Assembly: GCA_015486055.1 (NCBI GenBank)
Contig: WFSJ01000059.1
Coordinates: forward strand, 26,626 to 90,625
Source of the DNA: Acidobacteriota bacterium
Lineage (GTDB): Bacteria > Acidobacteriota > Aminicenantia > S016-38
Length of the DNA: 64,000 bases
Reading direction: 5' to 3'
How positions within the stretch are numbered: the stretch's first letter is position 1; every line of letters starts with the position of its first letter. The notes under the pieces are model-generated. The model was not told where the DNA came from. It worked only from the letters and a program-made list of their open reading frames with translations, and did not search any database. A program made the position numbers and the translations under genes. Below are positions 1 to 29,084 of the stretch, piece by piece.

Positions 1-555
1 TATGGTCATAAATACCTCTCCGAGAAGAGTAAGGTTATAAACGAGGAAGAACGCTATCAGAGGATGTTCAGGAAAATAAAATTTGTTGACCCATCAGGGA
101 AACAATCGATGCTGGCACCAAAGAAGGGAATGGGGAAAATCGCTGTTAAAAGAATGGGAGTTTATGTTATGTGTTTAAAAAGCGAGAGAGGAGCAAATGA
201 ACCTTATGGTCCTTCCGGAAAGTATGCCAAGGCCCTGATTCAGGTAGGAAAGGGGGATTCAGGGCTTTCCTATAGATGTGGCTTCAGAATAGAGCTTATA
301 CCCCTCAAGAATCCTTTCAAAATTAAAACAGGGGAATATCTTCCGGTGAAGGTTCTCTTTGAAGGAAAACCCTTATCCACCTTTGTATATGGCACCTATA
401 CCGGATATAAACCTGTAAAAGACGCTTTCCCGGTTATAGCAAGAAGTAACGATAAGGGAATAGCGAAGATTAAAATTACCCATCCAGGTGAATGGATGAT
501 TCTTGTTTCCCATAGAGTAAATTACAATGCTACTCTAACCTTCAGCGTGAAATAA
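1..555 (+). CDS. DUF4198-family (NikK-like) protein, truncated at left window edge
   Basis: Frame stays open from base 1 (YGHKYLSEKSKVINEERYQRM...), so the true start is outside the window. C-terminal part resembles the DUF4198-like protein at 28320..29084 (VKVLFEGKPL / VRVFFKGKPL; DSKG-type turn). Located next to cbiM. Confidence 0.65.
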   Translation, partial: YGHKYLSEKSKVINEEERYQRMFRKIKFVDPSGKQSMLAPKKGMGKIAVKRMGVYVMCLKSERGANEPYGPSGKYAKALIQVGKGDSGLSYRCGFRIELIPLKNPFKIKTGEYLPVKVLFEGKPLSTFVYGTYTGYKPVKDAFPVIARSNDKGIAKIKITHPGEWMILVSHRVNYNATLTFSVK

Positions 556-675
556 GAAGAACCAGGCTTTTTGCTCTTTATTTGCTTTTTGTGTGCTGGT
601 ACCAGGTGTAGGCTCACAGTGGAGCATATAAAGTAGATAGGAGAGGAATTGTCGTCTCTGTCTGACAGGAAGGAA

Positions 676-775
676 TTTACCTCCGATTTGAAACTTCTAA
701 TGGGATTAAGCATAATATTTAGGATATTTGGAGTTCTTTCCTTATGGAAGAATTAGAAAGTAAATCGGAGGTGAA
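676..775 (+). promoter_or_regulatory. Long imperfect inverted repeat in the cbiM leader that would sequester its Shine-Dalgarno
   Basis: ACCTCCGATTT (679-689) is the exact reverse complement of AAATCGGAGGT (762-772), which holds the GGAGGT ahead of the ATG at 776. TTCTAAT (695-701) pairs with ATTAGAA (752-758). Confidence 0.6.
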
Positions 776-1683: not shown

Positions 1684-2715
1684 TTAGTCCGAACCTACAA
1701 GAGATTTTATATACTTGAGCTCTCCGAGGATTCCTTTGGTAATATACTCTATGATCTCCTTCACCGACATTTCTTTATCAACAAGTCCAACGCTCTGTCC
1801 TGCCATAAGGGAACCCCTATCAACATCTCCCTCTTCTACTGCTTTGCGAAGCGCCCCTACCCAGAATTTTTCTACTTCATACTGGGCATCTATCCGGGAA
1901 ATTTTACCTTCCTTTATCTCTTTCAGAAGTTTCATCTGTAACTCAGCAAATTCATCCATCCCTTTGTTTCTTATTGCCCTTACAGGGACAACACGAAGTG
2001 CCTGATGAAACTGAGGAGTTGCAACAGCTTCCCTCGCCTTTGCCTTTATGTATCTTTTTTTAAACTCAGGATGAGCTCTGCTTTCCTTTGATATGGCAAA
2101 AATTGTTCCCATCTGGATTCCCGAAGCCCCGGCAAGAAGGAGGTGAGCAGCCATTTGCCCTGTTGCAATTCCCCCTGCTGTGAATATAGGGACTCTGTTG
2201 CGGAATTTAAAGAGCACCTGCTGGAGAAGAACCACCAAGGAAACATATCCCACATGGCCTCCGGCTTCGTTTCCCTCAAGTATTAAGGCATCAATTCCTC
2301 GGGACATAAGCCTTCTTGCACTTCCCTCATTTGAAGCAAAGGCAATTGTTTTTGCTCCTGTGGCTTTTACCCCTACAATTTCCTTGTCTTTTGGAAAGCT
2401 ACCAGCGAAGATTACGAAATTCACCTTCTTCTCTTTTACAACCTCAAGATGCCTTTTATAGTTTGGTGCAATTACAATAAGATTTACTCCAAAGGGTTTT
2501 TCCGTACTTGCGTGAATCCTGTCAATTTCGTCTGCCAGCCATTCTGCAGGACTATTTCCCCCTGCAAGAACTCCAAATCCTCCTGCCTCGCTCACTGCTG
2601 AAACTAATGTATGATCAGAAATCCATGTCATAGCCCCTGAGATTATAGGGTATTCTACACCGAGAAAGTCCTTTCCTTTTTCCCAGAGTTTCTCCAAGAA
2701 TTTTTTCTCATTCAT
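1684..2715 (-). CDS. NAD(P)H-dependent flavin oxidoreductase / nitronate monooxygenase (FabK-like)
   Basis: YPIISGAMTWISDHTLVSAVSEAGGFGVLAGG, EGNEAGGHVG, TAGGIATG and AGASGIQMGT motifs. ATG at 2715 chosen over the longer ORF start at 2751. Confidence 0.85.
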   Translation of the reverse strand: MNEKKFLEKLWEKGKDFLGVEYPIISGAMTWISDHTLVSAVSEAGGFGVLAGGNSPAEWLADEIDRIHASTEKPFGVNLIVIAPNYKRHLEVVKEKKVNFVIFAGSFPKDKEIVGVKATGAKTIAFASNEGSARRLMSRGIDALILEGNEAGGHVGYVSLVVLLQQVLFKFRNRVPIFTAGGIATGQMAAHLLLAGASGIQMGTIFAISKESRAHPEFKKRYIKAKAREAVATPQFHQALRVVPVRAIRNKGMDEFAELQMKLLKEIKEGKISRIDAQYEVEKFWVGALRKAVEEGDVDRGSLMAGQSVGLVDKEMSVKEIIEYITKGILGELKYIKSLVGSD

Positions 2716-2752
2716 AGGATAGATTTTAATGAATCCTTCAGGATATGTCAAA

Positions 2753-3319
2753 ATGCCCGATATAAAGTTACCTATGATAATATTATATAAAGTGAAGGAA
2801 AGATTGTTGTTTCTTTTTTATCTTATAGTGCTTATCTTTCTTTCCTTTCTAAGAGTTTGCCTTCCTCTCCTCGTTGTTTTCCTTCTTTGCCTTCCCTTCA
2901 TTAAATTAAAAAGGCTTGGGCCTGTTCTCCTTTTATTTCTAATTGTCTCGGTTCCGTATTTGGCAATTGGCTACATTGGGGGAGAATCAAGGCTTTACTG
3001 GTTTGGCCTTTTTAATCTCAGGGCGCTCTCAATGCTTACCTTGACTATGGCTTTCTTCTCAAGGATAAATCCATTTAAGGCACTGGCGTTTTCAAAGACC
3101 CTTTCATGGGTGCTGTCTCTTTCATATTCTCAGTATATTTCCTTCACGAGGAATTACCGTAAATTTTCTCTTGCCCTTAAGTCAAGAACCATAAAAAAGC
3201 TCCTCGGGAAAACCCTGAGAAGTTATATTGGATCAGTTTTTTCATTTTTCGTTGATTTCTCCGAGAAAAGAGCAAAGGAGATAGACCAGGCACTGGAATC
3301 AAGGGGTTTCCATGCTTGA
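2753..3319 (+). CDS. cbiQ: ECF transporter transmembrane protein CbiQ
   Basis: Polytopic protein with CbiQ-type ARS-like motif (ALESRGF) near C-terminus, upstream of cbiO. ORF track start is 2729. Confidence 0.85.
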   Translation: MPDIKLPMIILYKVKERLLFLFYLIVLIFLSFLRVCLPLLVVFLLCLPFIKLKRLGPVLLLFLIVSVPYLAIGYIGGESRLYWFGLFNLRALSMLTLTMAFFSRINPFKALAFSKTLSWVLSLSYSQYISFTRNYRKFSLALKSRTIKKLLGKTLRSYIGSVFSFFVDFSEKRAKEIDQALESRGFHA

Positions 3320-4100
3320 GTTAAGGAACATTACTTACTCCTATAACAGAAGAGAAGCGCTGAAAGAAATTAACATAAAGATTGAGGAAGGTGAAAGAGT
3401 AGTTATCCTCGGCGGTAACGGATGTGGCAAGACCACCCTTTTGAAACTGATGGATGGATTGATCTTCCCTGATGATGGGGAATACTTCTGGAATGAGCAG
3501 GAGGTTAAGGAGAATTCCTTTAAGCAAAGGGATTTCTCAAGGGAATTCCGTAGGAAGATTGTTATGCTCTTTCAAGATGTAGAGGTAATGCTCTTCAATC
3601 CCACAGTCTGGGATGAGATTGCATTTGGACCAAGGCAGCTTGAGATAGAGAATATAGAAACGAGAGTTGAGAATTGGGGCGAAAGGCTTGGAATATCTCA
3701 TCTTTTTAAAAGGCATCCAGGGGAGCTGAGTATAGGAGAGAAAAAGAGAGTGGCTCTGGCCTCTATCCTGATCCTTGAACCCCAGGTGATTCTTCTTGAC
3801 GAACCCCTATCGAATCTTGATCCAAGAACTACAGGGGAATTGATTGACCTTCTACTTGAACTTGGTGCAACCATAATATCTTCAACTCAGAATCTCAGCC
3901 TTGCTCCGGAACTTGGGCAAAGAGCAGTTTTGATTTCAGAAAACCACAGGAAAGTATACGATGGTTCGTTCGATGAGCTTTTTGAGGATGAGAAACTTCT
4001 TCTCGAAGCGAATCTTCTTCATATCCATAAACATAGACACGAAGAAAAGGTTCACCGCCATTTTCATCCCCACGACTGGAAATATACAAAAATCCCTTGA
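3312..4100 (+). CDS. cbiO: ECF transporter ATPase CbiO with His-rich C-terminal tail
   Basis: Walker A GGNGCGKTT, signature LSIGEKKRVALA, Walker B VILLDEPLSNLD. C-terminus HIHKHRHEEKVHRHFHPHDW. Confidence 0.93.
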   Translation: MLELRNITYSYNRREALKEINIKIEEGERVVILGGNGCGKTTLLKLMDGLIFPDDGEYFWNEQEVKENSFKQRDFSREFRRKIVMLFQDVEVMLFNPTVWDEIAFGPRQLEIENIETRVENWGERLGISHLFKRHPGELSIGEKKRVALASILILEPQVILLDEPLSNLDPRTTGELIDLLLELGATIISSTQNLSLAPELGQRAVLISENHRKVYDGSFDELFEDEKLLLEANLLHIHKHRHEEKVHRHFHPHDWKYTKIP

Positions 4101-4684: not shown

Positions 4685-5630
4685 TTAAACTTTCTGCGCC
4701 CCCATCCGTAGAATACACTCCCTGCATTTTGGAGGAACCGGGGGTCTGTAATCTGGAGGATAATGAGTGGTGCATTCGGAGGTTGTCCCTTTAGCAAAGG
4801 GGGTATCCACACAGCAGAATACTACACCTTCCGCATTTTTTTCGCATACCTGAAGACCCATCGGGTCCCTGTAAAATACAAGATTGTTCTTTCCATAAGA
4901 ATAAAGAAGCCAGCCGTGCTGTGCAGTTCTCATAATTGCAATTCTTGCAGGGTCCTCCGAGATAAATCTTCCTGTCTTCGGTGAATACCAGCGGTTGCGG
5001 AAGTAATACAGACCTACCTCAGGGAAATAATCCCTTCCTGTAAAGCGTATCTCCTCATAGCGAGTTCCATCTTCCTCGTAAACAGTATTTCCAAATGAGT
5101 CATACCTGAACCTTTTCAGGGGCTCACGTATTCCCTTTGTCTCTGTTATGTTCCCTAAGTGGTCTGTAAAGAAGAAAGGCTGGTGATAATAAGTCCCATC
5201 TGTGACCTTGGAGATTATCCCATCCACCCAGGGAAGGGAAAAGCGCTTCTCTTTATACTGGTCTGCTAACTTTATCCCCATCATTTCCTGCCCATCCCAT
5301 ATATAGTTTCCACTAACAGCTCCATCTATTCTCTCCTGCTACAATCTCCCTAATACATCATAACTGAATTCCACTGTCTTTTCAAGTCCCCCTGTGCCAT
5401 ATCTCTCATATTTTATAAGGTGATTTTCTGCATCCCAGTAGTATTTCTCATCCTTTGTCCCGTCTTTCTTCCTCTTTTCTGTGACGTCTTCGTCGTAAAA
5501 ATAAAGGTTTTCCTGGTCCTCTGTAAGCTGGTTGAGGCTGTTGTAGTTGTAGTAGCTGCTTAGATGGGAAGAGATGCGATTGCCAGCAGCATCATAGGTG
5601 TAGGTATGTGTTTCATGGCGAAAAGGACCT
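4685..5630 (-). pseudogene. RHS/YD-repeat protein fragment with in-frame TAG
   Basis: Minus-strand translation from about 5630 reads HETHTYTYDAAGNRISSHLSSYYNYNSLNQLTEDQENLYFYDEDVTEKRKKDGTKDEKYYWDAENHLIKYERYGTGGLEKTVEFSYDVLGRL*QERIDGAVSGNYIWDGQEMMGIK..., continuing in the same frame into the RHS core (FRYDSFGN..., YYFRNRWYSPKTGRFISEDP). Confidence 0.85.
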
Positions 5631-28319: not shown

Positions 28320-29084
28320 CTATTTTATCTGGAAACTAATAGTTGAAACTAAGGAAATCATCTCGCATTTCCCCATTAGTTTTGCCTCTGGCATCTTTTT
28401 TAAATGGGCTTTTATCATCCACATTCCCCAGTGAAGAACTCTTATCATAGCTACACCTTTTGAATCTGTCTCAGTGGCAAAAGCGAAATCGTCCTTTTTA
28501 GAAAAACCCTCGTATGTTGCATAAACGGGGATGAATGGAAGGGGTTTTCCTTTAAAAAAGACTCTGACTTTCATAAAATCATTCATCTTCAATTCAGAAG
28601 GGTCTGAAAGGAGCACAATTTCCATCTTAAGCCCTATTTTTCTGTCAAATCCTATTTTATCTTTTCCCGATTTCAGGATGGCCTTGGCAAATTCCTGATA
28701 GTAATCACTTACGAGAATTCTTCCCTTCACCATATTCATTGGCCTTTTAAAGTGCTCCACTCCTTTTTCTGTAATGGCCATTGTGTAAAAGCCCGGCTCT
28801 GTGGATGCATAGGCAATGTAATAGCCCTCCCTGTTAAAGTTCAATACAGACTCCTGGAATGCTCCCTGCGGGGAAAGCTTTATCAATTTTCCAGCAGGGG
28901 AAATTACCCCGTAACTCTGAAGCTCCTTTTTATTTATAAAATCCGCCACAGGGAACCTGTGTCCCCAGCCAAGGAAAATTATAGTGCTTCCCCCTATATG
29001 GCTATAATATCCCGTTGCATTTATCCAGAGAGTATGACCCTGCATTAAACCTACTATCAAGAATGCAAATATCAACTTCTTCAT
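28320..29084 (-). CDS. DUF4198-family (NikK-like) exported protein
   Basis: Signal peptide MKKLIFAFLIVGLMQG followed by HTLWIN. C-terminus resembles the protein truncated at the left edge. Confidence 0.72.
   Translation of the reverse strand: MKKLIFAFLIVGLMQGHTLWINATGYYSHIGGSTIIFLGWGHRFPVADFINKKELQSYGVISPAGKLIKLSPQGAFQESVLNFNREGYYIAYASTEPGFYTMAITEKGVEHFKRPMNMVKGRILVSDYYQEFAKAILKSGKDKIGFDRKIGLKMEIVLLSDPSELKMNDFMKVRVFFKGKPLPFIPVYATYEGFSKKDDFAFATETDSKGVAMIRVLHWGMWMIKAHLKKMPEAKLMGKCEMISLVSTISFQIK

Follow-up and report, generated by a model that had tools for sequence, protein, structure and literature searches.

The stretch of about 220 nt that precedes the cbiM gene (positions 546-775, plus strand) of the window, i.e., the whole 64,000-nt stretch of DNA analyzed, is, judging from its sequence, very probably the remnant of a decayed nikL-like gene, with the hairpin predicted there having arisen as a by-product of the decay. 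No evidence was found for a dedicated regulatory RNA upstream of cbiM. In the initial annotation this region had been interpreted as a translational cis-regulatory leader hiding the cbiM Shine-Dalgarno (SD) sequence; the occlusion of the SD is borne out by RNA folding, whereas the leader reading is not supported, in view of the nikL pseudogene, the lack of an Rfam match and the absence of the hairpin from the predicted folds of relatives. The hairpin is real and the leader was mistaken: as pseudogene remnants go the region is ordinary, apart from a stem that covers the SD unusually neatly.

The window lies on contig C59 of a 1.86-Mb genome (G000; 60 contigs, 98.9% complete), which among named genomes is closest to Candidatus Aminicenantes MAGs. 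The relatives compared were two genomes of the same genus (G001 and G002, with loci L010 and L011), one of the same family (G005, with locus L012) and three further family members (G003, G004, and G006).

The Transporter Operon

The window opens with the 3' part (1-555, plus strand) of a nikK-like gene (Pfam DUF4198, 1.6e-25), which is intact at full length, encodes 227 aa and starts 129 nt upstream of the window (G000:C59:26497; L109). Downstream of the pseudogene, and on the same strand, lie an intact cbiM/nikM (776-1405; Pfam CbiM, 4e-55), the sole CbiM-family gene of the genome, for which the ATG at 776 had been rightly chosen as the start (MHIPDGFL), a PDGLE-domain, NikN-like gene recognized by Pfam (1389-1661), a putative nikQ/cbiQ (2729-3319), named by its position and without Pfam or NCBIfam match, and a nikO/cbiO ATPase gene assigned by domain match, whose product has a His-rich tail (3312-4100). 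The ancestral order would have been nikK-nikL-cbiM(nikM)-PDGLE-nikQ-nikO.

The operon nikKLMQO encodes a nickel ECF transporter, as in Synechocystis sll0381-sll0385 (PMC5904137). The window resembles it in having a nikK-like DUF4198 gene, a (pseudo)nikL, M, Q and O in the order K-L-M-Q-O, and differs from it in that nikL is dead, that an extra PDGLE (NikN-like) gene is present and that the PDGLE gene and nikQ are separated by a nitronate monooxygenase-like gene in antisense orientation. One study reported finding the NikMNQO and the NikKMLQO systems together in no organism (PMC2667541), so that it is mildly unusual for one operon to contain nikK and a PDGLE/NikN-like gene, depending on how these genes are named.

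Some features of the neighborhood are recorded here in their own right. The nitronate monooxygenase-like gene (1684-2751, minus strand) between the PDGLE gene and nikQ has a counterpart downstream of PDGLE in L011, from the same genus, while in L012 nikQ follows directly. Immediately 5' of nikK, just upstream of the window (G000:C59, L109:2574-4481), a TonB-dependent-receptor-like gene is found, as it is in relatives; it probably provides the operon with its metal receptor in the outer membrane. A second DUF4198/NikK-like protein is encoded at 28407-29075 (minus strand; G000:C59:55032-55700), with diverged homologues in G001, G002, and G005 and no match in G003, G004, and G006. An isolated ORF without Pfam match adjoins the transporter operon (4685-5284, minus strand); it seems to resemble the C-terminal repeat end of RHS-type proteins (GLYYFRNRWYSPKTGRFISEDP). 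In the more distant L028 and L029 (Hydrogenothermus/Aquificota MAGs), a TTGACA followed by a TGAAT...ATTCA inverted repeat stands just 5' of cbiM, and this repeat is a possible metal-regulator operator.

A Decayed nikL-Like Gene

In L010, L011, and L012 the interval from nikK (DUF4198) to cbiM is occupied exactly by an intact ORF of 144-149 aa, which runs up to the start of cbiM. The encoded proteins show a signal-peptide-like start, a conserved core with the motifs WYEG, FQKGRTD, PDRPG and INDG, and a C-terminal hydrophobic helix. The NCBIfam model NikL (NF058648) matches the L010 protein with 49.6 bits (E 5e-13) and the L011 protein with 56 bits (E 5e-15), weak scores that fall below its curated cut-off of 100 bits, and for this reason the gene is named NikL-like.

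The pseudogene (546-775, plus strand) occupies the syntenic slot of this gene, between nikK and cbiM, and is homologous to the ORFs of L010, L011, and L012. It lacks the start codon and a core of about 230 nt, and carries a frameshift and in-frame stops. The N-terminal remnant (546-646, plus strand), corresponding to the signal-peptide region with HSxAYxV and interrupted by a TAG at 609-611, was recognized by DNA alignment (score 27, with 300 shuffles reaching 17 at most), which shows the deletion of the start codon, and by a tblastn match at 615-677 (E 2e-5). The C-terminal remnant (655-774, plus strand), with the LKLLxGLSIIF membrane helix, the KVNRR tail and a TAG at 754-756, was recognized by a tblastn match at 655-771 (E 6e-14, 61.5% identity) and from the codon table. 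In tblastn the leader scored 48.5 bits, vs. 21.9 bits for the best of 200 shuffled controls, with the two remnants in different frames and internal stops. Because both tblastn matches include 655-677, the deletion junction cannot be placed exactly; DNA identity sets it near 647-655. A search of the window's own genome (98.9% complete) with NikL returned the relic as sole match and no intact copy.

In the window lineage, nikL would have acquired stops and been deprived of its start codon and core. Comparing the C-terminal part, including the hairpin loop, with L010, differences at codon positions 1/2/3 number 4/1/9, the pattern expected for a recently dead gene; the sequence comparison accordingly points to a loss that would be recent. 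These lesions, like the strong hairpin, are known from one genome of the species, in a 60-contig assembly, and this fragmentation is what could be said for the reading that the organism has an intact nikL and that the relic is an assembly artefact. Such an error is very unlikely, since it would have to produce several stops and a frameshift on top of a deletion and the loss of the start, and to do so in a sequence diverged by about 25% from L010, next to a nikK and a cbiM that are both intact.

Geometry and Strength of the Hairpin

The sequences ACCTCCGATTT (679-689) and AAATCGGAGGT (762-772) are exact reverse complements of each other, as had been reported, and make an 11-nt perfect inverted repeat. 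When the 245 nt at 556-800 are folded, as had been proposed, the minimum-energy structure (-69.9 kcal/mol, z = -3.1; none of 200 shuffles as stable) contains both claimed helices. The outer one pairs 676-690 with 761-775 (plus strand) and emerges from the fold, from the inverted repeat and from the SD-helix energy; its 3' arm carries the cbiM SD (GGAGGT) together with the old nikL codons for NRR and the stop. The inner one pairs 695-701 with 752-758 (plus strand). In terms of the former gene, the loop consists of codons of the NikL C-terminal membrane helix, and the 3' arm of the nikL tail (VNRR and stop) plus the cbiM SD.

The predicted occlusion is supported by the folding, in which the cbiM SD is paired with a probability of about 1 at 37°C and of 0.99 at 80°C. 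The SD-covering helix reaches -26.9 kcal/mol, a strength that was not matched when the 70 nt upstream were shuffled 5000 times, and among the 33 SD-bearing ORF starts of the window cbiM has the strongest SD pairing (z = -7.3); these statistics are to be read in the light of the post hoc selection of the hairpin from 64 kb. Perfect 11-bp inverted repeats with 3-150 nt spacing occur eight times in the window and 2.2 times in shuffled sequence. The pairing that covers the SD is stronger than local chance, but, having been selected post hoc, it may still be due to chance.

Riboswitch and Transposon Readings

A structured region ahead of a Ni/Co importer gene invites the reading of a ligand-sensing leader, that is a riboswitch of an unknown class for Ni2+, Co2+ or B12 controlling cbiM. 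This is highly improbable: the region is protein-coding in the sister species and a decayed gene here, and no Rfam covariance model (Cobalamin, NiCo and others) fits it. At gathering and at relaxed thresholds (E up to 10), Rfam returned only tRNAs and chance matches. Nor did related leaders show conservation or covariation of the structure. The relatives have an intact gene there and fold differently, with only a weak homologous duplex in L010; being protein-coding, their sequences are not alignable as RNA leaders.

The alternative put forward in the initial annotation, that a MITE contributed the ribosome-binding site and that the arms, inverted and about 100 bp apart, are its terminal inverted repeats, has next to no probability left. 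The copy search found the element in single copy in the window genome, and both its interior and its 3' arm derive from nikL codons that L010 also has.

A promoter-like TTGAAA-17-CATAAT in the loop (688-716) was also considered. Matches of this kind number five, vs. 3.6 (sd 2.3) in shuffles, and since this frequency is shuffle-like and the stretch is coding in relatives, it was not taken as evidence. Transcription starting in the loop would leave the cbiM SD free.

Origin of the Hairpin

As a predicted fold, the hairpin is absent in L010, L011, and L012. The homologous duplex of L010 is weaker (-16.1 kcal/mol, equaled by 21 of 500 shuffles) and does not belong to its minimum-energy fold. L010, L011, and L012 each show some excess of SD pairing (p about 0.03-0.04), which is unconvincing because 10 of the 33 window starts reach p ≤ 0.05 in the same test; the more distant L013-L015 and L028-L031 have no consistent excess. 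The hairpin probably originated within the dying nikL.

The SD arm, GTAAATCGGAGGT (760-772), is identical in L010, being coding sequence and the cbiM SD at once. The 5' arm falls within a 21-nt block (668-688) with 7/21 identity to L010, flanked by stretches with 10/13 and 11/12 identity; the protein linker encoded at this block is variable among intact relatives too. The 5' arm would be nikL linker sequence that came to complement the SD arm almost perfectly; a weaker form of the inverted repeat persists in the sister species.

Two observations weigh against a mere by-product of decay. In simulations of random divergence from L010, three levels of divergence, with 4000 trials each, yielded a helix of window strength only 0, 1 and 1 times, and most of the changes in the 5' arm strengthen the pairing, a possible sign of selection. 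The 11-nt perfect match would be explained in one step if a template switch had copied the SD arm into the 5' arm, and the 5' arm was possibly perfected by such a correction of an imperfect inverted repeat. Template-switch mutations, among them quasipalindrome mutations in Escherichia coli, have been reported to create new hairpins and to perfect existing ones (PMC8794818; PMC7202029). As in those cases, the repeat is imperfect in the sister and near-perfect in the window, and the change is limited to one short block; the comparison here, however, involves only two sequences of about 70-76% identity, from which a single event is not provable. As an example of template switching giving rise to a hairpin, the locus is a candidate of modest standing.

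Consequences for the Translation of cbiM

The ancestral nikL would have ended at the cbiM start, in which case the cbiM SD lay within its final codons. From the spacing of the genes, ribosomes on nikL would have traversed the arm region before the decay and uncovered this SD. In the window a full-length nikL cannot be translated, and a transcript from nikK would have the cbiM SD covered, which suggests that translation of cbiM was lowered or uncoupled after the decay of nikL.

A hypothetical residual ORF of 35 codons (649-756, plus strand), with a TTG start and AGGAG at 639-643, spans the 5' arm and the loop, and its translation across the 5' arm could, in this model, open the stem. In translational coupling by RNA unfolding, translation of an upstream ORF opens a hairpin that contains the ribosome-binding site (PMC12548453). 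The window shares with this mechanism a downstream ribosome-binding site under a hairpin and an upstream ORF running through it; it differs in that the upstream ORF is a pseudogene, that the coupling is conjectural and that the strong hairpin is specific to the window genome.

The relic might accordingly have been co-opted as a translational control leader, in which the cbiM SD is hidden by the stem until ribosomes translating the TTG ORF open it. This is unlikely, although the SD pairing is the strongest among the 33 starts, the ORF with its SD-like AGGAG crosses the 5' arm, the C-terminal part is kept at the protein level and coupling through hairpins at ribosome-binding sites has precedent (PMC12548453). 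Against it, the hairpin is not conserved in relatives, the conservation of codons is equally expected after a recent gene death, and the case comes from one genome only. Moreover, the ORF has lost the tail and encodes Arg at a position where all three intact relatives have Gly, and both changes favor decay over use. The fuller scenario, in which the SD-covering hairpin of the nikL relic was perfected by template switching and cbiM translation is now gated by ribosomes on the remaining membrane-helix ORF (649-756), is quite unlikely.

Nickel Use and Loss of Transporter Subunits

No match to a [NiFe]-hydrogenase large subunit was found in the window genome, while the other six of the seven family members have one, and urease was likewise not found in it. 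The genome has a Prismane/CODH-family protein and B12-binding proteins, and the Ni/Co importer is kept. A link between nikL loss and nickel need is weak, because the Prismane/CODH-family protein is present and relatives without nikK and nikL keep hydrogenases. In G003, G004, and G006 neither nikK nor nikL had a match, and with both wholly absent there, the loss is recurrent in the family.

The analysis removes one false riboswitch candidate and points to a trap, namely that a pseudogene between operon genes can mimic a structured leader, because its 3' end retains the SD of the next gene. For the Aminicenantes, the locus offers a snapshot of nickel-transporter subunit loss, with nikK intact and nikL dead here and both genes gone in three relatives.
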